A stretch of DNA of 29,615 bases from positions 1 through 29,615 of the IMG/VR virus record IMGVR_UViG_3300041016_000734. One strand, given 5' to 3'. Under the pieces are notes generated by a model that saw only the letters and a program-made list of their open reading frames with translations, was not told the origin of the DNA and did no database searches. Positions 763-27,469 of the stretch are shown here, one piece after another; the stretch's first letter is position 1; each line of letters starts with the position of its first letter. A program made the position numbers and the translations under genes. The stretch comes from a virus.

Positions 763-794
763 CACTATAATAGATTATATCACTATTTTTCCAA
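763..794 (-). promoter_or_regulatory. Late-type promoter for the methyltransferase-terminase unit
   Basis: On the minus strand this reads TTGGAAAAA (794-786), an 11-bp spacer, then TCTATTATA (774-766). It differs from the other five copies only at the third base of the upstream box. It lies directly after the last early gene (stop at 796). It has the longest leader of the set, about 51 bases to the start at 714. The leader contains a relatively GC-rich stretch with two similar pieces, AATACCGG and AATACGG, which could be an operator or an RNA control element. Confidence 0.7.
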
Positions 795-795
795 A

Positions 796-1047
796 TCAAT
801 TCTCAAATTTTTCAGCATTGTCACCATAATAATCTAAAATTGTTTGATAATAATTTGCTATTGAAGTGTGACATTTACAATTTATTTGATACATAACTGC
901 TTGTGGGTTAATATATTTTTTATATAGATGATATATACTATCCATATCTGCCTGTGTTGCCACGGCCACTCTAAATAGCCTTAAAATCTCATTCTTATCT
1001 TCTATACTAAACATTCTGTTTGGGTCTAATTGTTTTTTATTGCTCAT
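796..1047 (-). CDS. Hypothetical early protein with a CxCH motif
   Basis: An 83-residue soluble protein that I do not recognise. The C-terminal half carries C-x-C-H (INCKCHTSIANYYQ), which could bind a metal or simply be conserved in the family. The start at 1047 overlaps the end of the upstream gene by 11 bases, showing translational linkage in a tight run of five small genes starting at 2021. It is the last gene of the early block; the late-type promoter for the methyltransferase begins immediately after its stop. Early phage proteins of this size are often host-takeover factors, but nothing here identifies a target. Confidence 0.75.
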   Translation of the reverse strand: MSNKKQLDPNRMFSIEDKNEILRLFRVAVATQADMDSIYHLYKKYINPQAVMYQINCKCHTSIANYYQTILDYYGDNAEKFEN

Positions 1048-1255
1048 CTTCTTTTTTTTCTATTTTTTTACATATAAAATATGTTATACCATATGGATTT
1101 TCACATTCCATTGTCCACTCTGAGGCATCTAATAAATCAAATTCCTCTGGTGTCATATCGTTTATATCTTTTGGTTCTAAAGGTAGATAAAAATAACCTT
1201 CTGGTGTTTGGCTTGTTACATAATGTATCCACCACTTCTTAAAATCTTCTGTCAT
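1037..1255 (-). CDS. Hypothetical early protein, acidic
   Basis: A 72-residue acidic protein rich in aromatic residues (WW near residues 8-9; PEGYFYLPLEP further on). No family recognised, no signal peptide and no membrane segment. It overlaps its upstream neighbour by 4 bases and its downstream neighbour by 11 bases, so it belongs to the same polycistronic early unit. Confidence 0.75.
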   Translation of the reverse strand: MTEDFKKWWIHYVTSQTPEGYFYLPLEPKDINDMTPEEFDLLDASEWTMECENPYGITYFICKKIEKKEDEQ

Positions 1256-1548
1256 AATCCTAATTCTTTTATTTTTTTGTTTCTAATGCTACTTTTTGTT
1301 TCTTCTAATACAATACTTATGTGTATATCAAATTCTTTACCTAAACCAATATAATTCGTAATTGGATAGTGGAACCTGTTAGTGTTAAACTCAATTAAAT
1401 TATATTCGTTACCATCAAGTAGTAATGTATCTTTGTTAGTTCTTATCGCATCATACATACATTTATCTATTGTCATAAAAACATCAATATTATTATTGAC
1501 GGTGAAAAATGGTTTATCTCTATGAACATATGGTGTTAAATCTATCAT
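1252..1548 (-). CDS. Hypothetical early protein, RNKKI C-terminus
   Basis: A 98-residue unknown protein. Its C-terminal stretch IRNKKIKELGL closely resembles LRNKKIDELLK at the end of the gene just upstream (1545-1820), so the two may share a short C-terminal interaction segment or come from an old duplication. The rest of the two proteins does not look alike by eye. It overlaps neighbours by 4 bases on both sides, as expected for co-translation. Confidence 0.75.
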   Translation of the reverse strand: MIDLTPYVHRDKPFFTVNNNIDVFMTIDKCMYDAIRTNKDTLLLDGNEYNLIEFNTNRFHYPITNYIGLGKEFDIHISIVLEETKSSIRNKKIKELGL

Positions 1549-1820
1549 TTTAATAACTCATCTATTTTTTTATTTCTAAGTCCTGCGATTAAAATAGGTT
1601 CAGCTGCTTTGTCTAAACAACTTTTTAATATATCATCTACTACTGCGTCAGAAAAATATATCTTCATTGTGTAATATAAATTTGTAAGTATAGTTTCGTC
1701 GTCAGAAAAAGATATAATCTTAATCTTAAAGTTTCTTACTAATTCATCTAATGTGTTTTCTAATTCTATTGAAGGGTCAATCACTAATTGTTTCTTCATA
1801 AGTTCTCTTACATCTTTCAT
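1545..1820 (-). CDS. Hypothetical early protein, RNKKI C-terminus
   Basis: A 91-residue, probably alpha-helical protein without recognised domains. It ends in LRNKKIDELLK, similar to the C-terminus of the protein encoded directly downstream. It is the second gene of the unit starting at 2021, separated from the first by three bases and overlapping the next by four. Confidence 0.75.
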   Translation of the reverse strand: MKDVRELMKKQLVIDPSIELENTLDELVRNFKIKIISFSDDETILTNLYYTMKIYFSDAVVDDILKSCLDKAAEPILIAGLRNKKIDELLK

Positions 1821-1823
1821 ATC

Positions 1824-2021
1824 TTAATAACTATTTTGTGAAAATTCAACACATACATTAATAAAAACTTTATCTGTATTAATTCTCCAGTTAATTGTTG
1901 AATGATATATTTCTATATCATGATAAAACACCATAAATTCTGTATAATCTTTACCTTTAAGGTGTTTTAATTTAACTAAATAACTAAAACCATTTTGTAA
2001 ATAAACTTCTCTTTGTCCCAT
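1824..2021 (-). CDS. Hypothetical early protein, first gene of its unit
   Basis: A 65-residue, probably beta-rich protein with no recognised family. The start at 2021 is supported by the AAAGAATATG context and by an early-type 32-bp element (2040-2071) 18 bases upstream. It therefore heads the five-gene early unit running to 796. Confidence 0.7.
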   Translation of the reverse strand: MGQREVYLQNGFSYLVKLKHLKGKDYTEFMVFYHDIEIYHSTINWRINTDKVFINVCVEFSQNSY

Positions 2022-2039
2022 ATTCTTTTGTTTTTCTTT

Positions 2040-2071
2040 TATATATTAAGTTCTAAAAGTCATTTTTTTCT
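2040..2071 (-). promoter_or_regulatory. Early-type 32-bp element, copy 1
   Basis: On the minus strand this reads AGAAAAAAATGACTTTT, then AGAAC, then TTAATATATA. Three other copies (3389-3420, 4209-4240, 4505-4536) are nearly identical. Each sits about 18-24 bases before the start of a small early gene, the position of a promoter. It overlaps the stop codon of the 45-residue gene upstream. It lacks the TTTG-containing -7 box typical of Bacteroidota housekeeping promoters, so recognition by the main host sigma factor is uncertain. Confidence 0.65.
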
Positions 2072-2207
2072 ATTTTCCTTGTCCTTTATAACTTTTTTTA
2101 TAATTCTTTGAGTTTTTACTTTTAGAGTGTTTTGTCTTTGAGTGAATTCCTTTTCTTTTCTTTTTTGGTTTCACTAAATGAACTTTAATTGATGTTTGTT
2201 TTTTCAT
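2070..2207 (-). CDS. 45-residue lysine-rich basic protein
   Basis: A short frame of 45 codons starting at 2207 and ending in TAG at 2070-2072. The product is strongly basic: it has a KPKKKRKG cluster near residues 14-21 and many K/S/N residues up to a GQGK end. It fills an otherwise empty gap between 2223 and 2021. Its composition suggests a nucleic-acid-binding peptide. Very similar short Lys/Ser-rich proteins ending in a GQG-type tail are, as I recall, frequent in Bacteroidota phages, but this rests on memory and was not searched. Confidence 0.65.
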   Translation of the reverse strand: MKKQTSIKVHLVKPKKKRKGIHSKTKHSKSKNSKNYKKSYKGQGK

Positions 2208-2222
2208 AATGGTTTTTTATTT

Positions 2223-2492
2223 TTATCTTAATCTAACTCTATTCTCATAAAATCCGATTATCTTGTCATACCAGAAACCTATAAAGGCCACTCCTGATGC
2301 TATGAATATATCTCCTGTCCATATTAAAGTAGACCAGAAACTAACACACATTAAACAACTAAGTAGTAGTTTAATAAAATTGTATATTAATTTATTTGGT
2401 AGCATCTCTAATATAATTTGTAGTGGTTGAAATCTTGTAATCAACCAACTCAATATAAGCATTTTAATTCCAGAAAAAAGTATTGTTATCAT
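2223..2492 (-). CDS. Small membrane protein with a CxxCxxFW motif
   Basis: An 89-residue protein with three hydrophobic stretches, about residues 2-20, 36-59 and 61-75. Between them is C46-x2-C49-x2-F52-W53. This resembles small membrane proteins of the DUF1360 type, which carry a cysteine pair followed by FW; the function is unknown. It overlaps the sigma-like gene by 29 bases. A second possible start is Met11 at 2462, just after the upstream stop, so the start is uncertain. Being in the early block, it could alter host membranes, for example in superinfection exclusion. A holin role is less likely because holin-like genes lie in the late region. Confidence 0.72.
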   Translation of the reverse strand: MITILFSGIKMLILSWLITRFQPLQIILEMLPNKLIYNFIKLLLSCLMCVSFWSTLIWTGDIFIASGVAFIGFWYDKIIGFYENRVRLR

Positions 2493-2991
2493 TTTCTAAT
2501 TGTTTTTTTATTTCACTTTTAACCTTACCGATTGCGTAGTGAATACTTTTAATGTTTATTTTATACATATCACTTATCTCTCTCAATTTAAGTCCGTCAA
2601 CATAATAATGTCTAAATAATGTTTTGTTATACCAGTGTTGTTCATCAACTAAACTTAATACTTTGTCATATAATTCTAAAACTTTTTCACTTTTATCTTC
2701 TATATCAAATATCTCATCTGTATCTAATTGTAAATTAACTGAACCGTGTTGATAAAATAAACCTGTATCTGGTATTTTACCTTTTTTAATTCTACTACAT
2801 ATTGTGAAGCAAGTGTATTCTAAAAAATTATTATAATAAGCTTGTAGTAGTTTATTAAAATCCATTTTATATAATTGTGTTATTAAATCACTTCTTAATT
2901 CTTCCCAGTCATTTTTACCAACTGCTTTACAATATGATATAATTTCTCCATTGTTCCATATATAAAGTATTATATCATTTTTATTCTTCAT
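2464..2991 (-). CDS. Sigma-70-like RNA polymerase sigma factor (phage-encoded)
   Basis: A 175-residue protein with the two-part layout of a minimal sigma factor. Residues about 25-100 resemble region 2: W-x-E-L-R-S-D-L-I near 28-36, and an aromatic helix ending in ICSRIKKG. Residues about 125-165 form a region 4-like helix-turn-helix (LFRHYYVDGLKLREISDMY, then INIKSIHYAIGKV, then a basic helix). A linker with acidic residues joins them. Such a protein would redirect host RNA polymerase to phage promoters. It lies in an early unit behind the element at 3389-3420, while the late motif TTAGAAAAA-N11-TCTATTATA precedes the structural units. I infer it activates those. An alternative is a simple HTH transcription factor. 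Confidence 0.68.
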   Translation of the reverse strand: MKNKNDIILYIWNNGEIISYCKAVGKNDWEELRSDLITQLYKMDFNKLLQAYYNNFLEYTCFTICSRIKKGKIPDTGLFYQHGSVNLQLDTDEIFDIEDKSEKVLELYDKVLSLVDEQHWYNKTLFRHYYVDGLKLREISDMYKINIKSIHYAIGKVKSEIKKQLENDNNTFFWN

Positions 2992-3364
2992 TCATATCAC
3001 TTATATTTTGTTGAAAATATAAGTCATTAAAATTTCTTAAGTTAGTTGCTGCCTCATATTCTTCATGTTCCAAACAAACTAAAATCATATATTCTACTAC
3101 TGATAAAAAATATATATTTAGAAGTATTTGTAATTCACTATCTACTAATTCACATATATCTTCAATATGTTCATCAAATTTACTGGTTATTTTCATAATT
3201 GCTTTATCACTTAAAATTATATTAACAATAAATATAAATAATGTTTCGTGGCAGTATTCTATTGAATGCCATACTTGTTTGTGTTTTGGACTTTTTGTAT
3301 CTATCCAATCTGGTAGGTATCTAAGTCTACTATCTATTTCTTCTCTTACTTGTAATAGTCCCAT
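2981..3364 (-). CDS. Hypothetical early protein
   Basis: A 127-residue mostly helical protein with no recognised domain. It has hydrophobic stretches (LFIFIVNIILS near residue 42 and ILLNIYFLSVVEYMILVCL near residue 80) that look like buried helices but could be membrane-associated. It is the first gene behind the early element at 3389-3420, and its end overlaps the start of the sigma-like gene by 11 bases. It is therefore co-expressed with the sigma factor and could be a partner or anti-sigma protein, though no sequence evidence shows this. Confidence 0.72.
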   Translation of the reverse strand: MGLLQVREEIDSRLRYLPDWIDTKSPKHKQVWHSIEYCHETLFIFIVNIILSDKAIMKITSKFDEHIEDICELVDSELQILLNIYFLSVVEYMILVCLEHEEYEAATNLRNFNDLYFQQNISDMNEE

Positions 3365-3388
3365 AGTGATTAATTTTTTTTTATAAGA

Positions 3389-3420
3389 TATATATTAAGT
3401 TATAAAAGTCATTTTTTTCC
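3389..3420 (-). promoter_or_regulatory. Early-type 32-bp element, copy 2 (sigma-factor unit)
   Basis: The minus strand reads GGAAAAAAATGACTTTT, then ATAAC, then TTAATATATA. It differs from copy 1 at two positions. It contains the stop codon of the upstream zinc-finger gene and is 24 bases before the start at 3364, the first gene of the unit that includes the sigma-like factor. Confidence 0.65.
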
Positions 3421-3759
3421 ATTTTTATCTTTTAATTCTTCCCACATCCACATCAGTTCATCTTCCATAGAAAGTGTTGTGAATACTATACCATTCTGTC
3501 TTGTGAATATATCTACTAATCTTAAACAATCTACAAAGTCAAAGTATCCATGTTTTTTACTCATCTCATCAATAAAAGTCATCATTTCTTTTTTTGATGG
3601 CTTTTTATCTTCTGTCTTAAATTTATGTTTTCTATCTGGATTTTTAACTCCTAAGCAATATTTACAAATGTTAGTATGTTTTTCTCTACCATGTTTATCT
3701 CTTCTACAATAAAAGTATTTAAGTTCTCTTTGTTGTTCACATTTATTACATGTCTTCAT
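3409..3759 (-). CDS. Zinc-finger (two CxxC) early protein
   Basis: A 116-residue protein. The N-terminus has C4-x2-C7 and C32-x2-C35 flanking a basic loop, the treble-clef pattern seen at the start of many phage HNH/endonuclease VII-like proteins. No HNH catalytic signature follows: the remaining region, about 50-116, is helical and acidic. It is therefore more likely a zinc-binding adaptor or DNA-binding protein than a nuclease. Its start overlaps the end of the upstream small gene by 14 bases. Confidence 0.75.
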   Translation of the reverse strand: MKTCNKCEQQRELKYFYCRRDKHGREKHTNICKYCLGVKNPDRKHKFKTEDKKPSKKEMMTFIDEMSKKHGYFDFVDCLRLVDIFTRQNGIVFTTLSMEDELMWMWEELKDKNGKK

Positions 3760-3925
3760 TACTTAAATATAAATTTACTAATTCTGTCATTTGTTCTCTT
3801 ATATCTTCAACACTTCTTTTGTCACGAATGTCTATTGCTGTAAGCATGTAGTGGTTCAATTCAATAATTGCTTCCTTAATTTCTGATTTTGTAAGGTTTT
3901 CTCTGTTTTTTAATTCTGTTATCAT
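3746..3925 (-). CDS. Hypothetical early protein (59 aa)
   Basis: I place the start at 3925 (MITELKNREN) because it follows the AAAGAATATG context shared by seven genes here; an in-frame ATG at 3955 is less likely. The product is a small helical acidic protein of 59 residues and unknown function. It overlaps the zinc-finger gene downstream by 14 bases, implying coupled translation. Confidence 0.65.
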   Translation of the reverse strand: MITELKNRENLTKSEIKEAIIELNHYMLTAIDIRDKRSVEDIREQMTELVNLYLSNEDM

Positions 3926-3968
3926 ATTCTTTTTTCTCATTTTTTTATATTTCATTTTTTAGATGAAA

Positions 3969-4184: not shown

Positions 4185-4208
4185 ATTCTTTTCTTTTTTT
4201 TTATACAT

Positions 4209-4240
4209 TATATATTATGTTCTAAAAGTCATTTTTTTCT
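4209..4240 (-). promoter_or_regulatory. Early-type 32-bp element, copy 3
   Basis: The minus strand reads AGAAAAAAATGACTTTT, AGAAC, then ATAATATATA. It differs from copy 1 by a single base. It is just beyond the stop of the upstream zinc-binding gene and 24 bases before the start at 4184. Confidence 0.65.
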
Positions 4241-4251
4241 ACTCCGGTTTT

Positions 4252-4485: not shown

Positions 4486-4504
4486 ATTCTTTATTGTTTT
4501 TTAT

Positions 4505-4536
4505 TATATATTAACTTAAAAAAGTCATTTTTTTCT
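4505..4536 (-). promoter_or_regulatory. Early-type 32-bp element, copy 4
   Basis: The minus strand reads AGAAAAAAATGACTTTT, TTAAG, then TTAATATATA. It overlaps the 3' end of the polymerase gene, whose TGA stop is within the element's ATGAC. It is 19 bases before the start at 4485. The long A-tract and the TGACTTTT core are fully conserved with copies 1-3. Confidence 0.65.
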
Positions 4537-5544
4537 TTTTATTTCTTCTTTAACGAATACTAATTCTGAATACTTATCTCTACAAAATTCATATACTTTA
4601 TCAACATCCTCTTCTCTAATAACTAAACTATCATGAACCGTTAAACAGAAATCAACTGGTATATTATTAAGTAAATCATCTATGAATATACTTGCTTCTT
4701 TATATTGTAATAATCTACAAACATTTTTATAATTGTTTGTTTTATATTTTCTAAGAAATGTATTTGCTGTTGAGAATATATCTCTTATTGATGTTTTATC
4801 AACATCTAAGTATCCTGTTCCATTAATCCATGATGTAAATAGTTCTTTAGCATCATCTCTATCAGTTAATGCTGGTATTCTTGCTATAATATAATCGTAG
4901 AAATCAAGTCCATTATCAAAAATTTCATTTAATTTATCATCTTGTAATCCAATCTCTTTAAGGTGTAACCATAATAATCTTGGTTGACAAGTTTTAGCAT
5001 CAATAGTCCAATACTTACCACCAGATAATATATCTTTATACGAGTAACCATCTCCTATATTACCAGTTATATTGGTATGTAGTCGTCTTGAGAAATTATC
5101 TCTTTTAATATGTAAATCGTCAGGTTGAAATCCTAATTGTAATAATGAATAACGAGTTTTCATATACCATTTTTCATTATTATATAAATTACTATAATCT
5201 ATATCTATATTGTCTTCATATCCATCTTCTGTGTCTATCAAAAACTTATATCTTATACAATTACCATTTTCTGTATTATAGTATTTCTTTCTTCTTATAT
5301 TAAAAAGGTCTTTATCATCAAAATTAAATGATTGAAAGTCAATTATTTTATGTTCTAATAATAGTTTAGTAACAGAGTTGTATTGACCTGAAACTTTTTT
5401 TAGATAAGATGAAGGACAATCAAAGTATCCTTTACTTTTACCTCTTTTATATAGTATAGCATTATATACTTTTTTTATTCTTTCTTTAGCATCTTTTCTT
5501 TTTTGTAGTGATAATAGATAATCTAATTCTTTTGGTATAATCAT
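4525..5544 (-). CDS. TV-Pol-like DNA polymerase (superfamily A palm)
   Basis: A 339-residue protein whose C-terminal two thirds resemble the palm/fingers core of superfamily A polymerases, in the compact TV-Pol style known from mobile elements and some viruses. Motif A is IDAKTCQPRLL (181-191, catalytic Asp182), in which the QP replaces the usual DYSQIELR. A helix with K233 (RDDAKELFTSW) could serve as motif B. LQYKEAS (279-285) and LTVHDSLVI (301-309, Asp305) form the pre-C helix and motif C. An upstream R-R-L-H-T (153-157) fits the nucleotide-binding approach. No 3'-5' exonuclease, helicase or primase domain is attached. TV-Pols were predicted in the literature to prime and extend; applying this here is inference. 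It is the only replication enzyme recognised and is encoded beside the candidate origin. Confidence 0.68.
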   Translation of the reverse strand: MIIPKELDYLLSLQKRKDAKERIKKVYNAILYKRGKSKGYFDCPSSYLKKVSGQYNSVTKLLLEHKIIDFQSFNFDDKDLFNIRRKKYYNTENGNCIRYKFLIDTEDGYEDNIDIDYSNLYNNEKWYMKTRYSLLQLGFQPDDLHIKRDNFSRRLHTNITGNIGDGYSYKDILSGGKYWTIDAKTCQPRLLWLHLKEIGLQDDKLNEIFDNGLDFYDYIIARIPALTDRDDAKELFTSWINGTGYLDVDKTSIRDIFSTANTFLRKYKTNNYKNVCRLLQYKEASIFIDDLLNNIPVDFCLTVHDSLVIREEDVDKVYEFCRDKYSELVFVKEEIKRKK

Positions 5545-5605
5545 ATTCTTTTTTCTTTTTTATGTTGCTCACTTTTAAGTAAGTTTCTTATATTGTATAT
5601 ATAAA

Positions 5606-5671
5606 GTTTCTTACTTCCCCTTTTGATAAATATATAAAAAAAAGTAAAAAAACTTTATCAAAGTAAGAAAC
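5606..5671. repeat. Long imperfect inverted repeat
   Basis: The right arm TTTATCAAAGTAAGAAAC (5654-5671) is matched in inverse by GTTTCTTACTT (5606-5616) and TGATAAA (5624-5630), with seven additional bases between these two blocks in the left arm. The loop is 23 bases of A-rich sequence. A third GTTTCTTA copy is at 5583-5590. It may be an operator pair or a replication-initiator site. Confidence 0.6.
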
Positions 5672-5680
5672 AGATACATG

Positions 5681-5812: not shown

Positions 5813-5841
5813 TTAGAAAAAGCCTTTGTTTATCTATTATA
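5813..5841 (+). promoter_or_regulatory. Late-type promoter for the plus-strand 328-aa gene
   Basis: TTAGAAAAA (5813-5821), 11-bp spacer, TCTATTATA (5833-5841), followed by TAAAAAAG and the start at 5859. It is the same motif found on the minus strand before five other units. Its use on the opposite strand confirms that it is an oriented promoter element and not a strand-specific compositional bias. Confidence 0.75.
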
Positions 5842-5858
5842 TAAAAAAGAAAAAGAAT

Positions 5859-6845
5859 ATGATTGTTAGAAATGATTGTGTCCAGGAGGATACTATAAGT
5901 GTTGAAGTAAATGGTTATTGCACACCTATAACTGAAATAATAAATCAAACACCTCAAATTGATTGTGATGAATTAATGGTCTGTGTTGGACCTCATCTTG
6001 TTTCATTAAATGACCTTATTATGAGAGTTTATGCGTATGTTCAGAGTGCTCAGTCTCAAAATCAAAATAATTTTAATCAATTATTTAATCAATATAACTC
6101 ACTTTACAATTTCTTTATGAAATGTTGTCATGAATTGATTGGTCGTCTTACTCGTATAGAAAAAAGAATAAATGGACTTATTGTTATTAGACAGGTGTTT
6201 ATTGAAAAAGCAACAATTCAACCAATAAGAAATACACCAATAAGAGAGGCTCAGTCAATTGTTATACAAAGACCACCTGTAGTTATTAGTGAAGAAAGGT
6301 ATGTTATAGACCAATCAATAACAAATGGATATATTGATAGTTATATTAGATATGATAATTACGGAAATAAAATACCTGACCCTTATGTATTTTGGTTAAA
6401 AAAAGAAGATGATTTTTTAAGAAAATTATGTCCTAAAGAAGTTCCTTACTCAAAAGGAAGTGCTCTTGCTAATGCTTGGATTGAAAAAATAAAAGCTGTC
6501 TTTGTTGAAAATAATATAGAATTTGACCCATCTATATTAACATATAAAAATATAGAAGTTAAATATTCTTTTTCTATTCCTAAATTAAGTGGTAGATGGG
6601 TTGTATCAGGTCAATCTGTTATTGACCTTAATGGAAATAATTTAACAAAAAGGCTTCCTATTGTTTATAATAAAGAAGTTAATGGACTTGTTCTTGAAAA
6701 AGTAACTAAATATAGAATTGACCCTAATCAGAGACCTGTTATTGGTTATGAACCTGTCCTTATGACTTATCAAGTTCTAAATAAAAAATTAAATACCCGA
6801 AGTTTGTTTGAGGCTGGTGTTAATCATTGGATAAAATATTCTTAA
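5859..6845 (+). CDS. Hypothetical protein, late-type promoter, opposite strand
   Basis: A 328-residue protein. I start it at 5859, after AAAGAATATG; an upstream in-frame TTG is unlikely because it lies within the promoter. The N-terminal 110 residues contain six cysteines and a Gln/Asn-rich, probably coiled-coil segment (QSAQSQNQNNFNQLFNQYN). Residues about 140-175 are Pro/Ile-rich. The rest appears globular, with many aromatics. No known family, signal peptide or membrane helix is evident. Its promoter belongs to the late class, so a structural or lysis-related role is more likely than replication, although it sits beside the early block. It is the largest gene here for which I can offer no function. 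Confidence 0.8.
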   Translation: MIVRNDCVQEDTISVEVNGYCTPITEIINQTPQIDCDELMVCVGPHLVSLNDLIMRVYAYVQSAQSQNQNNFNQLFNQYNSLYNFFMKCCHELIGRLTRIEKRINGLIVIRQVFIEKATIQPIRNTPIREAQSIVIQRPPVVISEERYVIDQSITNGYIDSYIRYDNYGNKIPDPYVFWLKKEDDFLRKLCPKEVPYSKGSALANAWIEKIKAVFVENNIEFDPSILTYKNIEVKYSFSIPKLSGRWVVSGQSVIDLNGNNLTKRLPIVYNKEVNGLVLEKVTKYRIDPNQRPVIGYEPVLMTYQVLNKKLNTRSLFEAGVNHWIKYS

Positions 6846-7055: not shown

Positions 7056-7565
7056 ATGGATTATTATGAAAAATTTAAGAAAGACCTAAAAGATGGTGAA
7101 TTGGGTGAAAGAGTATTTGCTTTCTACCTAAAAGAAACAAAGGATTTTGATATACTTGGTTTCAATAATGATTATAGATATGATATTATGGGTGAAATAT
7201 ATTGTAAGAGGATTACTTTTGAGGTTAAAACTGATAGATATGAATATTTTAAAGGTGTTAAAACAAATAATATGTTTATTGAAACAAGTTGTAATAATAA
7301 ACCTTCAGGTATTTCACGAACTGAAGCTGATGTGTTTGTTTATTTTCTACCTGATTTTGAGGAAGCCTATATGATTTCTGTTAAAAAACTTAAAGAGTTA
7401 TTATTAACTAATCAAGAGTATTTTAGATATACTACTCAGAGTGGTGATGAAGGAAAAGTTAAAGGTTATTTAATAAATAGATATGATTATAAACATCTAT
7501 TTAAGTTTTATCAAATACCTAAACTTAAATGTTGGAATAAAAAGATTTCTAATAGTGACATATAA
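7056..7565 (+). CDS. PD-(D/E)XK-type nuclease
   Basis: A 169-residue protein with the core of the PD-(D/E)XK nuclease fold. G-E-L-G-E (14-18) is in the first helix, Asp43 in YRYDIMG, and E56-V-K58 in TFEVKTDRY. NMFIETS follows, then a helix after SGISRTEADV and the strand FVYFLP. This D...ExK pattern cleaves DNA with divalent metal in resolvases, repair nucleases and some restriction enzymes. In a small phage it could resolve replication branches, degrade host DNA or process concatemers; the sequence does not decide. It is on the plus strand, follows an AT-rich promoter-like stretch (TATATAAG at 7021-7028) and ends directly at a bidirectional terminator. Confidence 0.72.
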   Translation: MDYYEKFKKDLKDGELGERVFAFYLKETKDFDILGFNNDYRYDIMGEIYCKRITFEVKTDRYEYFKGVKTNNMFIETSCNNKPSGISRTEADVFVYFLPDFEEAYMISVKKLKELLLTNQEYFRYTTQSGDEGKVKGYLINRYDYKHLFKFYQIPKLKCWNKKISNSDI

Positions 7566-7570
7566 GAATA

Positions 7571-7605: not shown

Positions 7606-8130
7606 TTAAGAAATTTTTAAGAAACCACTACCATCTTTATATATTGTTCCAGCTTCAAGTCCTGATGCAGATGTTGGAAGTGACCTTATATTAATAATTG
7701 TAAGTGGTTCATCATCAATTGTTCCAGATATTGATAGTCCATTTGGTGTTATCGCCATATCTATGACATTACCAACATTAGATGACTGAAATTGTAAAGA
7801 TTGATATGATATTGTCATATTTGCATTTTCACTTGTATCTTCACTACTTGTAGATATAAATATTTCACCTGTTGAAACATTTATATCAGCTCCTAAAGAT
7901 GTAATACTATCAGATGAATTTATAGTTACACCTGAAGTAAGACTAATTGAACTACTAGTATCAAATGTCTCACCATCAGTTGAAGTTATAATTATGTCTG
8001 TTCTATCTTCAGTCGCACTAATATGTTGTGTTTGTTGTTGTAATGCTGATACTTCTCCTGTCTCATCAGCTTGTTGTATTAAACTCAACATTGCTTGTCT
8101 GTTTGTTGTTGTTATGTTATCACTACTCAT
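7606..8130 (-). CDS. Fibre-like virion protein (terminal gene of the portal/lysis unit)
   Basis: A 174-residue Ser/Thr-rich protein. The N-terminus is helical (residues about 10-40). Beta-repeat-like sequence follows, ending in LPTSASGLEAGTIYKDGSGF and a final LKIS. This C-terminal pattern (LPTS, G-L, G-T-x-Y/W, D-G, L-K-I-S) recurs at the ends of many phage fibre or appendage proteins. It is likely a virion surface or capsid appendage protein. Its position after the holin-like genes and before the terminator is unusual, so a separate function cannot be excluded. Confidence 0.68.
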   Translation of the reverse strand: MSSDNITTTNRQAMLSLIQQADETGEVSALQQQTQHISATEDRTDIIITSTDGETFDTSSSISLTSGVTINSSDSITSLGADINVSTGEIFISTSSEDTSENANMTISYQSLQFQSSNVGNVIDMAITPNGLSISGTIDDEPLTIINIRSLPTSASGLEAGTIYKDGSGFLKIS

Positions 8131-8822: not shown

Positions 8823-9392
8823 TTAATCACAGAACTCACATGGGTCTATGTTACCAAGTGGAGGTAGAGGTCCTTGAAACTTTCTACCTGATGTAGCTAT
8901 ACCTGAAAAATAATTTGATACATTTGGTCTAATCTCAAATGATAAATTATTCTGATAAAATTCAGGAAATTCAGCTGGATAATTTTTAATAAAATCTCTC
9001 ATTCTCTCATTATAGAATTCAGCATTATTTCTAACTTGTTGTCTAAGCCATTTTATATCATCAATACCCGATGGTTGTGAACTATCTGATGACTTTTGTG
9101 AAACTGCTTTATTTGTTAATTTGAAGTTAATAAATGGAAGTGAGTGATAAACAACCCATTCACATAATGCCGGTTGTATATATTGTATCATAAGGTCTTG
9201 ATAAAAACCTGTGTAATTTGGGCAGTCATTTATCATTCTTTGATATAAGTTTTGACCTAATACTGATTGTATATTAAGGTCTTGTGCTTTCCAGATGAAT
9301 TTTTGTATCAAATCAACATCAACATTGCTTTCAATAACACTCATCTTAAACACATAGTTGCTTGTTATGAATAATTTATAGTCCATTCCCAT
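8823..9392 (-). CDS. Head-tail connector protein (DUF6712-like)
   Basis: A 189-residue protein directly after the portal and overlapping it by 17 bases. Residues about 23-60 (VDLIQKFIWKAQDLNIQSVL, then GQNLYQRM) match the pattern of Bacteroidota phage head-completion proteins: an alpha-helical 'I-x-x-A-Q-x-x-x-I-x-x-x-L-G-x-x-L-Y' core. A long helical region with WVVYHSLPFINF follows. It probably docks below the portal ring. The first two residues are uncertain because a second ATG is at 9386. The C-terminus ends in CEFCD. Confidence 0.68.
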   Translation of the reverse strand: MGMDYKLFITSNYVFKMSVIESNVDVDLIQKFIWKAQDLNIQSVLGQNLYQRMINDCPNYTGFYQDLMIQYIQPALCEWVVYHSLPFINFKLTNKAVSQKSSDSSQPSGIDDIKWLRQQVRNNAEFYNERMRDFIKNYPAEFPEFYQNNLSFEIRPNVSNYFSGIATSGRKFQGPLPPLGNIDPCEFCD

Positions 9393-10500
9393 CGCCTTCA
9401 GTTATTTTTTCTATATCTAATTTATATTTATCTAATACTAATTTTGAAGATGAACCATTAAATCTTAGTAATTTATTATAAACTGCCTCTACTAATTGTT
9501 GTTTTGGATTTATATACATTGATTGGAACATCTCTAAACTTTCTAAAATGATTGATTTTTGTCCTAATTCACCTGGTGTATTAACACCAAATATACCTGG
9601 ATTTGTTACTGAATGTCCTGTTAAAATTCCTTGTGTAATTTCTTTGTTTAATTCAATAAATCTCTCATCTGTATCACCTAATTGAACCGGTGTAATCTCA
9701 GGAGCACTATCTTTTCCGTCAGAAAATAAGAACATCACCTTTCCTGCTTTTGTCGCACCTTCGTAATCTGATTGTAATTGTCTAATAACATTTCTCATTT
9801 CATCATCTGAAGGAACACCATTATTAAATGTTATAGTCATAGATGGTGCGAAGCCATTATCAACTTGATTTTTATGAAATAAAGAAATTGAATATTCTAA
9901 ATCAATATAATTTACACACGGTAGATATTCTGGTTGGCCGTAAACCTCAGCTCCTGGTCTATATTCTTTAACATAAAGTATTTGTGATGCTACTGGATTT
10001 TTTGGATTGTAAATTGGTTTCTTAACTGGTGTGTATTTTCTTGTATTTGACCAGTCATCTGAATAATAAATATATTTTTTACAATCAGATACTCTTATTT
10101 TATTTGCTGGTAGATAATTTAATTCTGCTATTTTACTTCTATCTTTTGAGTATATAATCTCAACAGCGAATGCTCCGAATAATTCTAAATCATAAGATGT
10201 TCTAAAAACTATATCATTTAATGATAGTTCATTATAAGGATTGGCTAGAAATTGATTTGCTATTCCATCTAATCCTTCTAAATTCCAACCATTACCTCCA
10301 ATCATCATTGCCTTTCTTTTAAGAATAGCGTTGTGTTTAGCACTTCTATTCATAAGTGAAATTAAATAATCAGGATATAAATTGTCCTCCCCATAAAATA
10401 TATAACCTGCTCTTGATGCTTTCTCTACATATTGAGGAGCATTAGATGTGTTAAAATTATGAATTACAAATTGTATTTTCTTTTTTTCTTCTTCTTCCAT
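9376..10500 (-). CDS. Phage portal protein
   Basis: A 374-residue portal, short compared with SPP1- or HK97-type portals. Characteristic sequence includes GEDNLYPDYLISLMNRSAKH (37-56), the conserved stretch where portals of Bacteroidota phages begin, then ILKRKAMMIGGNGW. A middle domain has beta strands and a stem/wing part (YLPCVNYIDLEYSISLFHKN near 193-212), and there is a C-terminal crown segment. It forms the dodecameric ring through which terminase packages DNA. It is in the unit behind the promoter at 11129-11157, after two small virion genes and before the connector, and not beside the terminase as usual. Confidence 0.82.
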   Translation of the reverse strand: MEEEEKKKIQFVIHNFNTSNAPQYVEKASRAGYIFYGEDNLYPDYLISLMNRSAKHNAILKRKAMMIGGNGWNLEGLDGIANQFLANPYNELSLNDIVFRTSYDLELFGAFAVEIIYSKDRSKIAELNYLPANKIRVSDCKKYIYYSDDWSNTRKYTPVKKPIYNPKNPVASQILYVKEYRPGAEVYGQPEYLPCVNYIDLEYSISLFHKNQVDNGFAPSMTITFNNGVPSDDEMRNVIRQLQSDYEGATKAGKVMFLFSDGKDSAPEITPVQLGDTDERFIELNKEITQGILTGHSVTNPGIFGVNTPGELGQKSIILESLEMFQSMYINPKQQLVEAVYNKLLRFNGSSSKLVLDKYKLDIEKITEGDGNGL

Positions 10501-11128: not shown

Positions 11129-11157
11129 TATAATAGACATTTTTGTATTTTTTCTAA
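11129..11157 (-). promoter_or_regulatory. Late-type promoter for the portal/lysis unit
   Basis: The minus strand reads TTAGAAAAA (11157-11149), 11-bp spacer, TCTATTATA (11137-11129), TAAAAAAG, then ATG at 11112. It begins 9 bases beyond the terminator of the capsid unit, so a new transcript starts as the previous one ends. Confidence 0.75.
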
Positions 11158-11837: not shown

Positions 11838-12791
11838 TTATGATGCTTTAATAACTACATACTGAGGAAATGCTACTTGAGCTCCAACTTTCAACTTAGC
11901 TCTAAAGTAAGTGATGTTGTCTCTGATGTCATACCAGAATTGGAAGCCATCACCATTTCTTGCCTCACCGAAGCTGTCTGTTCCGAAGAAGAAGTTAGAA
12001 GATGGTGTTAAAACCGCCTCGTTTCTTCCGTTAAGACCTCTTGTTGCTACAACTCTAACATTAGTGTTAGTGTAGTTCTCAAGAACCCAAGTGTGACCAG
12101 CAACTCCGTCATATCCGAAGAAGTAGTTATTGTTTCTTAATGTGTTCATTAATACTCTAAAGTTTGCGTGTGAAACGAAAAGTGTTAAATCATTTGCATC
12201 TAAAACATCATTTGGAATTAAAGCAATCATATCATCAACGATGTCTAATGAATTTGCTGTTGTGAATGCTCCTGAATAAGTTGTAGAAATTACAGAGTTT
12301 GTAGCTGATGTATTCTCTAAAATATGAAGAAGACCATTACAAAGTGCTAAGTTACCACCTCCGTAAGTTGAATTCACAGAACCTTTCCAGAAGATGTCTT
12401 CTACAAATTGTCCTACTTTTTCTACTTTGTTAGCAAGATATAATTGATTAAACGCTTCTGGAGCGAATTCATTATAACTTCCTTCTTTTGCTAATTGTCC
12501 TATCCAATACTGTTCAAATTCATCTACACAGATGCTTTCTTCTACTTTAATTGGACATACGGTTATATCTCTCTGTGTAAGAGTTGTTGAACCTGTTGGT
12601 GAGATTGTTCCACAGCCACCTGCAGCTGCAGTAAGAGTGTTGTTTAAGATGTTAATACTATCTGCGTATTTAATTCCAGTTTGAACTGAAATATAATCAA
12701 AAGTATTACCAACCAATACAGCCTCTTTCAATAAAATACCAGACAATTGGTCTGTATATTTTGTTAAACTTCCTAAATTTAATGTTGCCAT
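11838..12791 (-). CDS. Major capsid protein (HK97-like)
   Basis: A 317-residue protein following the scaffold gene. VCPIKVEESICVDEFEQYWI (about 83-102) and the segment AFNQLYLANKVEKVGQFVED fit the E-loop/spine part of HK97-fold capsid proteins of Bacteroidota phages. The C-terminal half (LFVSHANFRVLMNTL; later NITYFRAKLKVGAQVAFPQY) is the typical P/A-domain end with a final hydrophobic strand. It forms the icosahedral head. It is richer in G+C than the early genes, as expected for a highly expressed gene. No cross-linking residue assignment can be made by eye. Confidence 0.85.
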   Translation of the reverse strand: MATLNLGSLTKYTDQLSGILLKEAVLVGNTFDYISVQTGIKYADSINILNNTLTAAAGGCGTISPTGSTTLTQRDITVCPIKVEESICVDEFEQYWIGQLAKEGSYNEFAPEAFNQLYLANKVEKVGQFVEDIFWKGSVNSTYGGGNLALCNGLLHILENTSATNSVISTTYSGAFTTANSLDIVDDMIALIPNDVLDANDLTLFVSHANFRVLMNTLRNNNYFFGYDGVAGHTWVLENYTNTNVRVVATRGLNGRNEAVLTPSSNFFFGTDSFGEARNGDGFQFWYDIRDNITYFRAKLKVGAQVAFPQYVVIKAS

Positions 12792-12820: not shown

Positions 12821-13432
12821 TTACCTATTGTTTCTTCTTGCTTTCTCTCTGATAGCCATAATGTCTACAGCTCCAATAGAGTTTGCTTTTTCTTCTAATG
12901 ACTTAAATTCAGCCACTGCTGCTTCAATCTTAGATGTTGATGGTTGTTCAGCAATTTTAGAAAATTCTTGTTTCATTTTCTCATTTTCCTCTTCAACTTC
13001 ACCGAATTTTTTTGCCATTTCAGCAATCATTTCTTCACATTTAACAAGTCTTTCCATTACTTGTTTCATTTCTTCTGCTTTTGGCTCTTCTTTTTTGTCT
13101 TCAGCTGCCTCAACTTCAACATCATCAGTTTCTTCAACTTGGACATCATCAGTTTCTTCATCTTCCAATTCTGCGTCTGGTTCAACCATTGCTTTAATTT
13201 TACCAGCCTCTACAACTATCTTAACACCATCGTCAAATGTATATTCTCCATCTAAAAGAGGAACATTATTTCCTTCTTCGTCTCTCAAATATACTTCCGA
13301 ACCAATCATAAAGTTCTCATCTGGTGTAACAATTAATCTATCTGCAGATTTTTGTTCAGCGAATTTAGCCTCAGGTGATACTAACGATTTCAATTGTGTC
13401 TTGATTTTCTCAATTAACTCTTGTTTATTCAT
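12821..13432 (-). CDS. Scaffolding protein
   Basis: I choose the start at 13432 (MNKQELIEKI), which follows a late-type promoter; the longer frame to 13606 runs through the promoter and is not coding. The 203-residue product has a small beta-like domain near 40-85 (VTPDENFMIGSEVYLRDEEG, then LLDGEYTFDDG). A very acidic linker comes next (EDEETDDVQVEETDDVEVEA), and a coiled coil (about 115-160) and a basic C-terminus (REKARRNNR) end the protein. Acidic linker, coiled coil and basic tail directly upstream of the capsid gene are the hallmark of scaffolds, which guide capsid assembly and then leave. Confidence 0.82.
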   Translation of the reverse strand: MNKQELIEKIKTQLKSLVSPEAKFAEQKSADRLIVTPDENFMIGSEVYLRDEEGNNVPLLDGEYTFDDGVKIVVEAGKIKAMVEPDAELEDEETDDVQVEETDDVEVEAAEDKKEEPKAEEMKQVMERLVKCEEMIAEMAKKFGEVEEENEKMKQEFSKIAEQPSTSKIEAAVAEFKSLEEKANSIGAVDIMAIREKARRNNR

Positions 13433-13456: not shown

Positions 13457-13485
13457 TATAATAGATATAGCATTGTTTTTTCTAA
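13457..13485 (-). promoter_or_regulatory. Late-type promoter for the scaffold/capsid/tube unit
   Basis: The minus strand reads TTAGAAAAA (13485-13477), 11-bp spacer, TCTATTATA (13465-13457). The TCTATTATA box is followed by GTATATAAAAAAAT in place of TAAAAAA. The start codon is 24 bases further, at 13432. Confidence 0.75.
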
Positions 13486-13508: not shown

Positions 13509-14690
13509 TTATGTTCTTTTAGGATGTTTTTTAGGTAGTAAGTCATTATCATCAACATACTTTTTGTTTTCTGGTCTTCCGTTCTTAACAATATAAATAA
13601 AAGCATTTACTCTTGCTAAGGCCCATTGTTCTGCTGACTTAACTAAAGGTGAATGACTTACATTAAAAGCACCAACACCTCTTTGATAAACAGATTTTAA
13701 CATACCTACATCAACTCCATATCCTAATTTCTCTTTATATTTTTCATTAAAGTCATCTGCTTTTCCTTTTAGTATTTCTTCTACTCTTTCAGAAACTTTT
13801 GCTCCTCTTGATGATGATGCGTCACCTTTAGCAGAACCTTCACCTTTTGGATTTTTATTAGGTGTGTCTGATTTAGGTGCCTTAGGTGATTTTTTAACAC
13901 CACCTCTTGGTCCTATAACTGCTAATTCATCTTCATGATATAAATACTCACTATCTTCTGTGTGAGTAGCACCAGTCATTAATCTACCTGATGCGTCTTT
14001 ATGTGTAGGTCCTGTATATAATTTACCATCAGCTGTATAGTGAGGAACACCTTTTTCATATTTTCCTACTTCAGCAAAAATTTGTAGTAAATCTTCTAAT
14101 TCTAAATCATCTATTGTTACTTCTTTACTTAAACTAACTAATTGTTGTCCTAATAAACCTTCAATACTAAAACCAAACTTTTCATTACCTTTAACTTCTT
14201 CTAACCAGAAGTTAGTATCTTCAACCTTAACCATAATCATATAAGTTCCTACTGGAACCTCAAATCCATACATTCTTGATTTATCATATACTTCATTTTC
14301 AACAATCCAATCTTCCATAATAAAAGCATCTACCATTTGATTAGAATGGTCTATGTTAATCTTTCTGTTAGAACCATATTTGTTAAACTTTTCAACCATC
14401 TTTTCAATAGTTTCTTTTGTGAATACAACATAATACTGACCATACTTTTCATCTTCTCTGTATATTTTCATATTAGGAATTAAAGCCGGTCCAACTATAA
14501 TTTGTTTATCATCAGAAACTTCCTTAAAAGACATAACTGATTGTTCTCCATTAAACATCATACCTTTCATAGAAATTGCTGGCTCATCTACTAATGAAAT
14601 AAGTGATATACCAGTCTCATCATTATCATCAACAACGATTTCATAAACTGGTAGTTTACTCTTATCTATTTTTTCTAATTTTCCCTTCAT
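13509..14690 (-). CDS. XkdF-like prohead serine protease with C-terminal DUF5824-like domain
   Basis: I start it at 14690 (MKGKLEK...), since the extension to 14732 overlaps the tape-measure end; the product has 393 residues. The N-terminal half matches the XkdF family: LVDEPAIS (33-40), VGPALIP (66-72), then H115 in INIDHSN and S175 in KFGFSIEG as probable catalytic residues. The middle has two glycine-threonine-histidine repeats (KLYTGPTHK and RLMTGATHT), a motif often seen in phage head proteins, then a Pro/Ser/Lys-rich linker. The C-terminus (about 310-385) resembles DUF5824 (RGVGAFNVSHSP, EQWALARVNAFIYIV). It would mature the prohead by cleaving scaffold and capsid proteins. It lies just before the scaffold. 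Confidence 0.82.
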   Translation of the reverse strand: MKGKLEKIDKSKLPVYEIVVDDNDETGISLISLVDEPAISMKGMMFNGEQSVMSFKEVSDDKQIIVGPALIPNMKIYREDEKYGQYYVVFTKETIEKMVEKFNKYGSNRKINIDHSNQMVDAFIMEDWIVENEVYDKSRMYGFEVPVGTYMIMVKVEDTNFWLEEVKGNEKFGFSIEGLLGQQLVSLSKEVTIDDLELEDLLQIFAEVGKYEKGVPHYTADGKLYTGPTHKDASGRLMTGATHTEDSEYLYHEDELAVIGPRGGVKKSPKAPKSDTPNKNPKGEGSAKGDASSSRGAKVSERVEEILKGKADDFNEKYKEKLGYGVDVGMLKSVYQRGVGAFNVSHSPLVKSAEQWALARVNAFIYIVKNGRPENKKYVDDNDLLPKKHPKRT

Positions 14691-19674: not shown

Positions 19675-19703
19675 TATAATAGATAAACTATCATTTTTTC
19701 TAA
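19675..19703 (-). promoter_or_regulatory. Late-type promoter for the fibre/tape-measure/protease unit
   Basis: The minus strand reads TTAGAAAAA (19703-19695), 11-bp spacer, TCTATTATA (19683-19675), TAAAAAAA, then ATG at 19654. The first base of the motif directly follows the stop codon of the 1108-residue gene. Confidence 0.75.
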
Positions 19704-24582: not shown

Positions 24583-24598
24583 TTATTTTTTTATTTTT

Positions 24599-25078
24599 TT
24601 ATTTACCATTTATAAGTATTTTATCAATCAAAGCATTTATATCTTCAATTGCTGCTTTTTCAATTAAAGTTTTCTTTTTAGAATAAACTTCATCAATTGT
24701 CTTTTGTATCACATTTGTTGGTTTAATACCATTTTTAGCAATACTTCTGGCTATTAAAAACTTAACACTTTGTCTTGATATAAATTTACCTTTCTTATCT
24801 CTTGGTGCTATTTTTCTGGCTATAACCCATCTATCTAATGATTTTAATGGTGGTTGTTTTGAACCTGCTTTTCTACCTTCATCAACATTAGTTAAATAAT
24901 CAGCCGCAAGTAATTCAATCATTATTCCGTTTGCTTTCTCAACTAATTTATAATCAACACTTCTTATAAGTGTTCCGGTTGCCTTCTTATCTGCCTTTAA
25001 CAGGTTTTTAACAAGTGTCTTAACTAAATCCTCACCGACCTTATCTAAAGTCTCTAACAGGTTCTTATTATCTTCCAT
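24599..25078 (-). CDS. HK97 gp10-like neck/tail-completion protein
   Basis: A 159-residue protein with the core of the HK97 gp10 family: an N-terminal helix, the ATGTLIRSVDYKLVE strand region (36-50), the signature AADYLTNVDEGRKAGSKQPP (58-77) containing Y-x-x-x-V-D-x-G and a proline turn, then a helical C-terminus. Such proteins complete the head or link it to the tail. Its start codon overlaps the stop of the upstream gene by one base, so translation is coupled. It sits among tail genes and not with the capsid. Confidence 0.75.
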   Translation of the reverse strand: MEDNKNLLETLDKVGEDLVKTLVKNLLKADKKATGTLIRSVDYKLVEKANGIMIELLAADYLTNVDEGRKAGSKQPPLKSLDRWVIARKIAPRDKKGKFISRQSVKFLIARSIAKNGIKPTNVIQKTIDEVYSKKKTLIEKAAIEDINALIDKILINGK

Positions 25079-25545
25079 TATTTTTTCTCTTTATCAATTT
25101 GTTTTAGTTTTCTTTGTGCCCATTCTACACCAGCATCACCACCCCATGCGAGCCACATCAATCTTCCACATCCATCTCCTAAATCTTTCTGACTATTCTG
25201 TCTGTGTCTCTCAAATGCTGCCATTCTCGCAATTGTTTCTCTTGATATAGGTTCTCCTTTTGCTAGTTGATTTGCTCTGGCTTTTCCTACTGGTGTTCCA
25301 CATGAACCCCAGCCATTTTCCTCAGCCCATCTCAAAGCTATTTTTGCGTTTTCTGATGCTGCCTTTGGATAATCTGAATAACTCTTAGCTAACTCTAAGT
25401 CTGATACTTCTTTTGGTTTAGGCGGTGTATTTGCGATGGCTTGTTTAATAGCATCTTGTCTTCCATTTGGTCCTGTATAACAAGTTCCCATATCACCCCA
25501 TTTCCAACCTCTCTTTCCGTTAATAATACATTGTTTTATTGGCAT
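25078..25545 (-). CDS. Phage head/tail-associated protein with a CG-rich helical domain
   Basis: A 155-residue protein. The N-terminus KQCIINGKRGWKWGDMGTCY (4-23) is the typical start of phage proteins carrying a small 'G-x-x-G-W-K-W-G-x-x-G' segment followed by TGPNGR. The rest (about 50-145; ENAKIALRWAEENGWGSCGT, then PVGKARANQLAKGEPIS, then CGRLMWLAWGGDAG) matches a domain common in prohead-protease-linked or head-associated phage proteins. In many phages that domain is fused to the protease; here it stands alone. Function unknown, with a virion or assembly role inferred. Confidence 0.6.
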   Translation of the reverse strand: MPIKQCIINGKRGWKWGDMGTCYTGPNGRQDAIKQAIANTPPKPKEVSDLELAKSYSDYPKAASENAKIALRWAEENGWGSCGTPVGKARANQLAKGEPISRETIARMAAFERHRQNSQKDLGDGCGRLMWLAWGGDAGVEWAQRKLKQIDKEKK

Positions 25546-25561
25546 AGTTATTAATTTATTT

Positions 25562-26596
25562 TTAATCTACTTGTGTTATTGTTAAAATAACACTTGGTAT
25601 AGCAGGTATAATTCCTGTAGCTACTTCAGTGTGTAATGAAACAGCATTATTTACATTACTTTGTATTAACCAAGGTATTTGTATGTATTCATCATTTGTT
25701 GTTGTCTCAATAAACCAGTTCCAAGCCGCAACTTCATATACTGAATTAGATGGAAAATCTACTCTTGAGGCTGAGTTAGTTATAGATGTTCCATTTTGTG
25801 AAAGCCATATATGTGTATGTGTAGATGAATTACCACTATTCTTAATCATCTGTGCTGAAAATTGTATATTATAAACACCTGGATTTTCAATATAAAATCT
25901 ATTACTTGCTGATGCGAATACTCCTGAATTCCATGTATCACTACTATTACAATTCATATATAAAAGAGTGCTAGCGGTTCCAGTTTGTGTTGTTGTATCA
26001 AAAAATGAACCATAGTATTTTACATCTGCTGGTCCTGTAGGTCCAGCCGGTCCTGTAGGTCCTGTTGCTCCAACTAATCTATATTCTGTTATATTGTTAT
26101 TTAATTGTGTTGTATAACCTACTATTGGTTCTATTGGTGAATTACAATAAGTATATCTAACAGGCATCTTTATTGTTATATCACATTGCCACCCATTAAC
26201 ATTATCATCTGTTGCTTCTACTACTGGTAGGAAGTTTATATCACTATCAATAGAAAGGTTCATATCTACATAAAATCTATGTTGTGATATTTCACTTATC
26301 ATTGTGTCTAAAATATAATGTGTATCTGATATGATTTCATTATAATTGTCCTCCCCGAAATTAATTTTATCCATGCAGTATATTGTGAATGTATATAAAT
26401 TAACTTTAAGACCATTATCACTCTTCTGTGTTGTTGTGCTATTATTTTCAATCCATATATAAGGAAACTTCATCTCACGAGATGCTCCTATATTATATGC
26501 TGGTCCATAACCGAAGTCATTTACCATCTCTTGTCTAATAGATAAATCTTGAAAGATTGATACTATTCTATTTATACTTAATGTGTCATTAGCCAT
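25562..26596 (-). CDS. Tail-completion-like domain fused to collagen repeat and C1q-like domain
   Basis: A 344-residue three-part protein. Residues 1-155 resemble a tail-terminator/neck-like protein (short N-terminal helix, FPYIWIENNST, and a strand-rich core ending KMPVRYTYCNSPIEP). Residues 176-190 are a short collagen-type GXY run (GATGPTGPAGPTGPA). Residues about 192-344 form a beta-sandwich similar to C1q/TNF-like trimers (YYGSFFDTTTQT, PGVYNIQFSAQMIK, SVILTITQVD). The collagen run and C1q-like head suggest that a trimeric surface decoration is attached to a neck or terminator component. Order in the unit (after the chaperone pair) agrees. The first domain's assignment is the least certain part. 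Confidence 0.65.
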   Translation of the reverse strand: MANDTLSINRIVSIFQDLSIRQEMVNDFGYGPAYNIGASREMKFPYIWIENNSTTTQKSDNGLKVNLYTFTIYCMDKINFGEDNYNEIISDTHYILDTMISEISQHRFYVDMNLSIDSDINFLPVVEATDDNVNGWQCDITIKMPVRYTYCNSPIEPIVGYTTQLNNNITEYRLVGATGPTGPAGPTGPADVKYYGSFFDTTTQTGTASTLLYMNCNSSDTWNSGVFASASNRFYIENPGVYNIQFSAQMIKNSGNSSTHTHIWLSQNGTSITNSASRVDFPSNSVYEVAAWNWFIETTTNDEYIQIPWLIQSNVNNAVSLHTEVATGIIPAIPSVILTITQVD

Positions 26597-26598
26597 GT

Positions 26599-26868
26599 CT
26601 ATCTATAACTATTTTTTCTTATTTCATTTTGTTGTTCGTGATACTTATCTCTTTCATACCAGTAAGATAATAAGTTCAAGCACTCTATATAATTTCTTTG
26701 ATAAACCTCATCGTGTTTTGTTATATCACCATTACTTAATCTATCTACCATTGCCAGCCATCCCCATCTTTTGTCTATACTTACTTGACCTAAAGCGAGG
26801 TTGTCTTCTTTTGAGCTCTTACTAAACAAACCTTTATATTGTTTGTATATTATTGCTTCCCACCTAAA
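26599..26868 (-). CDS. Tail assembly chaperone, -1 frameshift extension (GT part)
   Basis: This frame has no ATG before its folded part, so it is not an independent gene. Read from a -1 slip at the T-run of the upstream gene, it adds 89 residues (RWEAIIYKQYKGLFSKSSKE... at the join) to residues 1-184 of the first protein, giving a fused product of 273 residues. The extension is helical and contains WGWLAMVDRLSNGD and the aromatic stretch LNLLSYWYERDKYHEQ. In lambda, gpG and gpGT are produced the same way and bring tape measure and tube together. An internal TTG at 26829 is an unlikely start. Confidence 0.72.
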   Translation of the reverse strand, partial: FRWEAIIYKQYKGLFSKSSKEDNLALGQVSIDKRWGWLAMVDRLSNGDITKHDEVYQRNYIECLNLLSYWYERDKYHEQQNEIRKNSYR

Positions 26869-27419
26869 AAAAAACCTATTGGCCCCATAAGGTCCATAAC
26901 AGGTTGATTTAAGAATATCTCTTTCCTATAATCTATATTATTAGCTGTGAATTTATCTTGAACCCACTTCTCTTCTCCTGTCTCACCATCTTGAACCAAT
27001 TTACCTGGTCTTAATATAATTGCCAGTATGTAAGGTATTGCTTCTGATTGTGATTTTGCGTTCTCTTGAAATGTCTTCATAGAAATATACTCACCCATTG
27101 TCAGTTTATTTAAATCCTGAGGAAACACATATGTTGTTCCTTCAATCTCTAATGTCTTTACATTTGGCCATTCTGTGTGTTCTTGTAAGAAACCAAGTGA
27201 AGATGATATATCATTAACTACTTCTAAAGTTAATTCATCTAATTCACCATCTTCAGCATCACATATTGCCTCAATAATTTTAAGTAAATATAACTCACCT
27301 AAAAAGTATTCTGCTCTTTTCTCTTCAAGTTTTGCCACATTAACATATAGTTTAAGTGTCATCTCTTCCCAGCTTTCTGGAACTTGATACTCTTTTTCAT
27401 TTAACTTAAAAAATTTCAT
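26850..27419 (-). CDS. Tail assembly chaperone (G-like)
   Basis: A 189-residue acidic helical protein, first in its unit behind a late-type promoter. The body (WEEMTLKLYVNVAKLEEKRA; LNKLTMGEYISMKTFQENA; YILAIILRPG) fits the tail-chaperone families of Bacteroidota phages. It ends ...GPIGFFLGGKQ, and its penultimate codons are a homopolymer T-run that allows a -1 frameshift into the next frame. It would bind the tape measure during tail assembly and not be part of the finished virion. It lies about 9.5 kb from the tape-measure gene; usually the two are neighbours. Confidence 0.72.
   Translation of the reverse strand: MKFFKLNEKEYQVPESWEEMTLKLYVNVAKLEEKRAEYFLGELYLLKIIEAICDAEDGELDELTLEVVNDISSSLGFLQEHTEWPNVKTLEIEGTTYVFPQDLNKLTMGEYISMKTFQENAKSQSEAIPYILAIILRPGKLVQDGETGEEKWVQDKFTANNIDYRKEIFLNQPVMDLMGPIGFFLGGKQ
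26866..26874 (-). promoter_or_regulatory. Programmed -1 frameshift slippery site
   Basis: Nine T in a row on the minus strand give codons GGT TTT TTT TTA GGT at residues 182-186. A shift by one base backward gives TTT AGG TGG GAA and joins the reading frame that continues to 26599. T TTT TTT is a functional slippery type. The site is five codons before the zero-frame stop, a position typical of tail-chaperone frameshifts. Confidence 0.75.
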
Positions 27420-27440
27420 ATATTCTTTTTTGTTTTTTTA

Positions 27441-27469
27441 TATAATAGATAAACTATTATTTTTTCTAA
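27441..27469 (-). promoter_or_regulatory. Late-type promoter for the tail-chaperone/tail-tip unit
   Basis: The minus strand reads TTAGAAAAA (27469-27461), 11-bp spacer, TCTATTATA (27449-27441), TAAAAAAA, then ATG at 27419. It differs from the copy at 19675-19703 by one spacer base. It lies 6 bases beyond the large-terminase stop. Confidence 0.75.

Follow-up and report, generated by a model that had tools for sequence, protein, structure and literature searches.

The 29,615 nucleotides of IMG/VR virus record IMGVR_UViG_3300041016_000734 (positions 1 to 29,615, called the window below) carry six copies of the two-box motif TTAGAAAAA-N11-TCTATTATA, all between genes and each directed at a start codon 16-51 nt downstream, which raises the question of what these boxes are and what reads them. 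The original prediction had taken them for late promoters and had named no factor; a phage-encoded sigma-like protein fits that role. Our analysis favors, with a probability of roughly 0.75, a model in which the motifs are -35/-10 late promoters read by the host core RNA polymerase together with a phage sigma factor of 175 aa, encoded at 2464-2991 on the minus strand.

The motif stands out clearly from chance in the window. A search allowing up to 3 mismatches returned exactly six matches against 0.49 expected, a number reached in 0 of 100 shuffles. In a blind search of the whole genome the motif was the top dyad, and its submotifs were also top-ranked in a blind search upstream of genes. The spacer is 11 bp and the downstream box invariant in 6/6 copies; the sole deviating copy, at 766-794, has the upstream box TTGGAAAAA, with one base changed. 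The downstream box by itself was not enriched (with up to 1 mismatch allowed, 40 occurrences against an expectation of 35.7), and the signal is the pair of boxes at fixed spacing, not the downstream box alone. Wholly non-coding 29-bp positions are scarce in the window (1025 of 29587), and all six copies are non-coding provided that gene 12821 begins at the ATG at 13432, a start that agrees with the relatives; no scatter of the motif inside genes was seen. The distances from box to start codon, in site order from 766, are 51, 17, 16, 24, 20, and 21 nt, with the stop codon of the upstream gene within 25 nt at four of the six sites. The positions, spacing, and distances given by the original prediction were thus recovered, save that its first site starts at 766 and not at 763.

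The motif search was extended to relatives of the phage, which are uncultured freshwater phage contigs with terminases 52-100% or portals 65-97% identical to those of the window. In this family, 67 distinct sites were found with the consensus TTAGAAAAa-N11..13-T[C/A]TATTAtA, the spacer sequence drifting while both boxes are kept; the invariant columns of this count are partly set by the search pattern, and conservation was judged mainly from mismatch-tolerant searches. Flanks and spacers differ, yet nearly every site immediately precedes a gene and shares its strand. The motif was also found by blind search in relatives; in G027 it was detected by profile and missed by the blind upstream dyad search, and de novo searches in L095, G018, and G020 found no motif that exceeded shuffled sequence. 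In the window's own clade, TCTATTATA follows an 11-bp spacer in 33/33 sites. Other lineages have TATATTATA in its place, with a spacer of 11, 12, or 13 bp, so the exact 11-bp spacing that had been claimed holds for the window but not across the family; both forms of the downstream box are present in contig L032. Written in -35/-10 notation, the family motif is TTAGAA-N16..18-TATTAT, and the gap calculated from the spacer counts of the 67 sites (16 bp, n=48; 17 bp, n=15; 18 bp, n=4) is typical of sigma-read promoters. Other viral contigs matching the exact pattern mostly carry one copy each.

The sites fall at shared junctions in the family: after the terminase and before 26850, after 19704 and before 17357, before 12821, before 10855/10518, before 5859, and before the methyltransferase or the terminase small subunit (TerS). 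That diverged relatives keep these boxes at matching junctions, upstream of the late units and in their direction, lends the late promoter reading strong comparative support. At three sites in relatives (G014 12604-12632, G024 7744-7772, and G029 13730-13758), just 4 nt separate the downstream box from the following ATG, which suggests leaderless mRNAs or misassigned starts.

One could also read the motif as a conserved DNA or RNA junction element, such as an operator, a packaging signal, an mRNA processing site, or an insertion site, rather than a promoter. The sites do lie exactly at module borders, and in one near-identical relative the promoter is kept but another gene follows it. The fixed orientation, with the start codon mostly 15-25 nt away, the tolerance of 1-2 bp in the spacing, the lack of a palindrome, the six or seven copies per genome instead of one or two, and the lack of an Rfam match all argue against such an element, and we consider it very improbable. 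Terminators, riboswitches, and other known RNAs were ruled out by the same lack of Rfam matches.

The genes behind each copy can be followed around a complete circle: the window is a circular genome of about 29.5 kb, because the contig ends share a 55-bp repeat and a DNA methyltransferase gene (1-714 and 29054-29615, minus strand) runs across them. The copy at 766-794 (minus strand) heads the packaging unit of methyltransferase, TerS, and terminase large subunit (TerL; 27475-28647, minus strand; phrog_2, 1.1e-44), and has an orthologous site in G016 and, directly before TerS, in G014. Directly behind this copy, at 751-762 on the minus strand, lies the element TAATACCGG[C/T]GTAA, which is found at the same place in the otherwise diverged G014, G016, G017, and L006 and might serve in packaging (pac/cos) or as an operator. 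The copy at 27441-27469 (minus strand), right behind the TerL stop, heads 26850 and the tail genes and is the site most widely conserved among the relatives. The copy at 19675-19703 (minus strand) heads the 17357-14707-protease unit, with orthologous sites in G014, G016, G017, G025, G027, and G029. The copy at 13457-13485 (minus strand) heads 12821 and the gene at 11838-12791 (minus strand), 79-92% identical throughout the family, whose product is probably the major capsid protein, judging by position and conservation. The copy at 11129-11157 (minus strand) heads the unit of 10855/10518, portal (9376-10500, minus strand; phrog_11226, 6.7e-31), and DUF6712, with orthologous sites in G014, G016, G017, G024, G027, and G029. 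The only plus-strand copy, at 5813-5841, heads the plus-strand genes 5859-6845 and 7056-7565 and has orthologous sites in G014, G016, and G025. Near the end of contig L027, a plus-strand promoter is identical to window 5813-5860, spacer included, and is followed by a different gene (product MSGVITQYSRM... versus MIVRND... in the window), as if the gene had been swapped right behind the promoter.

The terminase large subunit, portal, protease, and DUF6712 are the genes recognized in the window, and named phages are only remote kin, with terminases about 34% identical in Bacteroides phages. A terminase scan of bacterial assemblies returned relatives that were dominated by Bacteroidota, mostly at 30-54% identity; the motif was not found downstream of the terminase in those inspected, and a capsid scan of bacterial genomes gave no match. 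Shine-Dalgarno-like bases precede only 2/37 window genes and the leaders before start codons are A-rich, as in Bacteroidota, where translation starts have A-rich leaders and are almost devoid of Shine-Dalgarno sequences (PMC6847099). Because the terminase relatives are mostly from Bacteroidota and the leaders are of the Bacteroidota kind, a Bacteroidota host is most likely.

Promoters of the Bacteroidota primary sigma have a TAnnTTTG -7 element (PMC7366714, PMC9723704). The TATTATA box does not contain this element, and the genome shows no excess of the combined host motif. Alternatively, the phage might simply reuse ordinary host promoters, those of the primary sigma or of a host extracytoplasmic function (ECF) sigma. 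In a host outside the Bacteroidota, this reading would gain from the likeness of TTAGAA-N16-TATTAT to a weak sigma70 promoter (3/6 and 5/6 bases); the A-rich starts with their rare Shine-Dalgarno bases point away from such a host. The exact motif was absent from 198 genomes sampled from the phylum Bacteroidota, which includes Chishuiella, although few chance matches are expected anywhere in any case, and with up to 1 mismatch it was absent from 7 genomes carrying terminase relatives. Moreover, TTAGAAAA is kept over the family sites with no drift toward TTGACA. We find this explanation improbable, and the claim that the motif is not a host-type promoter agrees with both the missing TAnnTTTG and the 198 genomes.

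A phage RNA polymerase, single- or multi-subunit, was rejected as the reader of the motif: the early genes all encode proteins of 339 aa or less, and no polymerase match was found among the large proteins scanned in Pfam. The 175-aa protein consists of a helical N-terminal domain, a linker, and a sigma region 4, and its gene is present in every family genome with an available early region. Alone, the window protein gave weak matches to sigma families, including TIGR02937 (sigma70-ECF), in Pfam/NCBIfam and fell below the Pfam curated cut-off for Sigma70_r4_2. This family was matched in 8/10 phage family members (best 9.8e-8), and hhalign against Pfam-confirmed Bacteroidales ECF sigmas gave a Prob of 97.8 and an E of 8.4e-13. 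AlphaFold2 modeled two helical domains with a low-confidence linker between them; region 4 of sigma-E matched the full-length model structurally with a Z of 9.5 (1.8 A over 69). The C-terminal half of the protein was thereby shown to be a sigma region 4. Named phages searched for the sigma-like protein gave no match.

The N-terminal domain is likely a sigma region 2, as far as the models indicate. When the full-length model was compared with the PDB, the leading matches were almost all sigma factors, many of them spanning both domains. Modeled alone, the N-terminal domain reached a predicted local distance difference test (pLDDT) score of 93.7, and its best VIA-align matches were ECF region 2 structures (SigL, Z 6.8, 2.8 A over 67; sigma-E region 2, Z 5.3). 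Some observations weigh against a phage sigma. The N-terminal domain gave no sequence match to sigma region 2, and the Foldseek matches of this domain alone were not significant; because of this, the protein could instead be an activator or co-sigma that joins a region-4-like DNA-binding domain to a non-sigma helical domain, much as late activators do. It would then bring the host holoenzyme with its primary sigma to the late promoters, with the upstream box as its operator, and region 4 is indeed the only part of the 175 aa detectable by sequence. Against this activator reading, the full-length model retrieves sigma factors across both domains, the best VIA-align matches of the N-terminal domain are ECF region 2, the downstream box does not have the TAnnTTTG -7 element required by the host sigma (PMC7366714, PMC9723704), and it is conserved about as well as the upstream box. 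We therefore regard an activator as unlikely, and as the most serious of the alternatives considered here.

Other points also weaken the phage sigma model. The assignment of a Bacteroidota host is deduced, not proven; gene content is the basis for calling the units "late"; and the link between sigma and motif rests on co-occurrence and few independent divergence events. The two most diverged homologs (G018 and L095; 22-26% identity) have another recognition helix, and neither profile nor de novo searches found the motif in G018 and L095, which is consistent with sigma and motif co-evolving.

The phage sigma model would operate in three steps. The host holoenzyme would transcribe the early operon on the minus strand (from about 5544 to 796), including the sigma gene; since this operon carries no copy of the motif, the sigma should be made early by the host polymerase. 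The phage sigma would then join the host core enzyme, with region 4 binding TTAGAAAA and the N-terminal domain binding T[C/A]TATTATA. Transcription would begin about 6-8 nt past the boxes, from six points on the circular genome, and cover the plus-strand genes as well as those for packaging, capsid, portal, and tail. That this sigma is the factor and binds the boxes, when the genes are switched on, and where their transcripts begin are all inferred.

The first gene of the early operon (4525-5544, minus strand) has no late motif upstream. No early promoter was recognized there; the conserved stretch ahead of the gene lacks the motif and contains inverted repeats. Half-sites of the AAGTAAGAAAC type, repeated and inverted, lie upstream of it at window 5578-5616 and about 5660-5672, are conserved in G016, and are likely an operator over the early promoter. 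Within the operon, a conserved gene for 127 aa (2981-3364, minus strand) overlaps the start of the sigma gene; it overlaps or abuts that start in 8 genomes, at a low identity of 14-74%, and its product is a possible cofactor or anti-sigma.

Transcription switching in Bacteroidota phages is little known and their hosts use unusual promoters; a limited literature search found no described late promoter for these phages. Both halves of a switch, the sigma candidate and the promoter, can be read here from the sequence. If true, this would be the first late transcription switch defined for Bacteroidota phages of roughly 30 kb, and the pair would give an orthogonal promoter system for Bacteroidota hosts. 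The family, with TCTATTATA and an 11-bp spacer versus TATATTATA and 11-13 bp, would form a natural series for joint change of sigma and promoter. It seems to us an even bet that these roughly 30-kb Bacteroidota phages share a new phage sigma lineage, with an N-terminal core-binding domain that sequence no longer reveals and a possible 127-aa partner, co-evolving with its own late promoter.

The regulatory principle is already known; the sigma-promoter pair is new. Bacillus phage SPO1 (gp33/gp34) and T4 (gp55/gp33) redirect the host RNA polymerase to late promoters by means of a phage sigma that is in some cases accompanied by a small partner; in T4, these promoters have no -35 box. By description, the 127-aa gene adjoining or overlapping the sigma gene resembles these systems. 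The sigma gp36 of phiEco32 reads one-box promoters, tAATGTAtA (PMC4331800, PMC8948821). These promoters, which drive middle and late genes, are few and hold fixed places in the genome, as the model would have it here, but each is a single element with no -35 box and gp36 has no region 4; the 175-aa protein has no profile similarity to it (hhalign Prob 0.1). Bacteroidota ECF sigmas (Bacteroidales loci L138-L143) share with the phage protein its size, two-domain layout, and region 4 homology, but in the phage protein region 2 is not detectable by sequence, and the window motif does not have the CGT -10 box of a Flavobacterium ECF-type motif (PMC9723704). The gp47 of Salmonella phage 7-11 was experimentally proven to be a phage sigma reading bipartite GTAAtg-(16)-aCTA late promoters (PMC8948821). 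Phage 7-11 is a larger phage of Enterobacteriaceae with a different consensus, and gp47 is likened by its features and not by sequence; nevertheless, in both systems a region 4-containing phage sigma would direct the host core RNA polymerase to bipartite promoters ahead of the late structural genes, and the host sigma would read a set of early genes.

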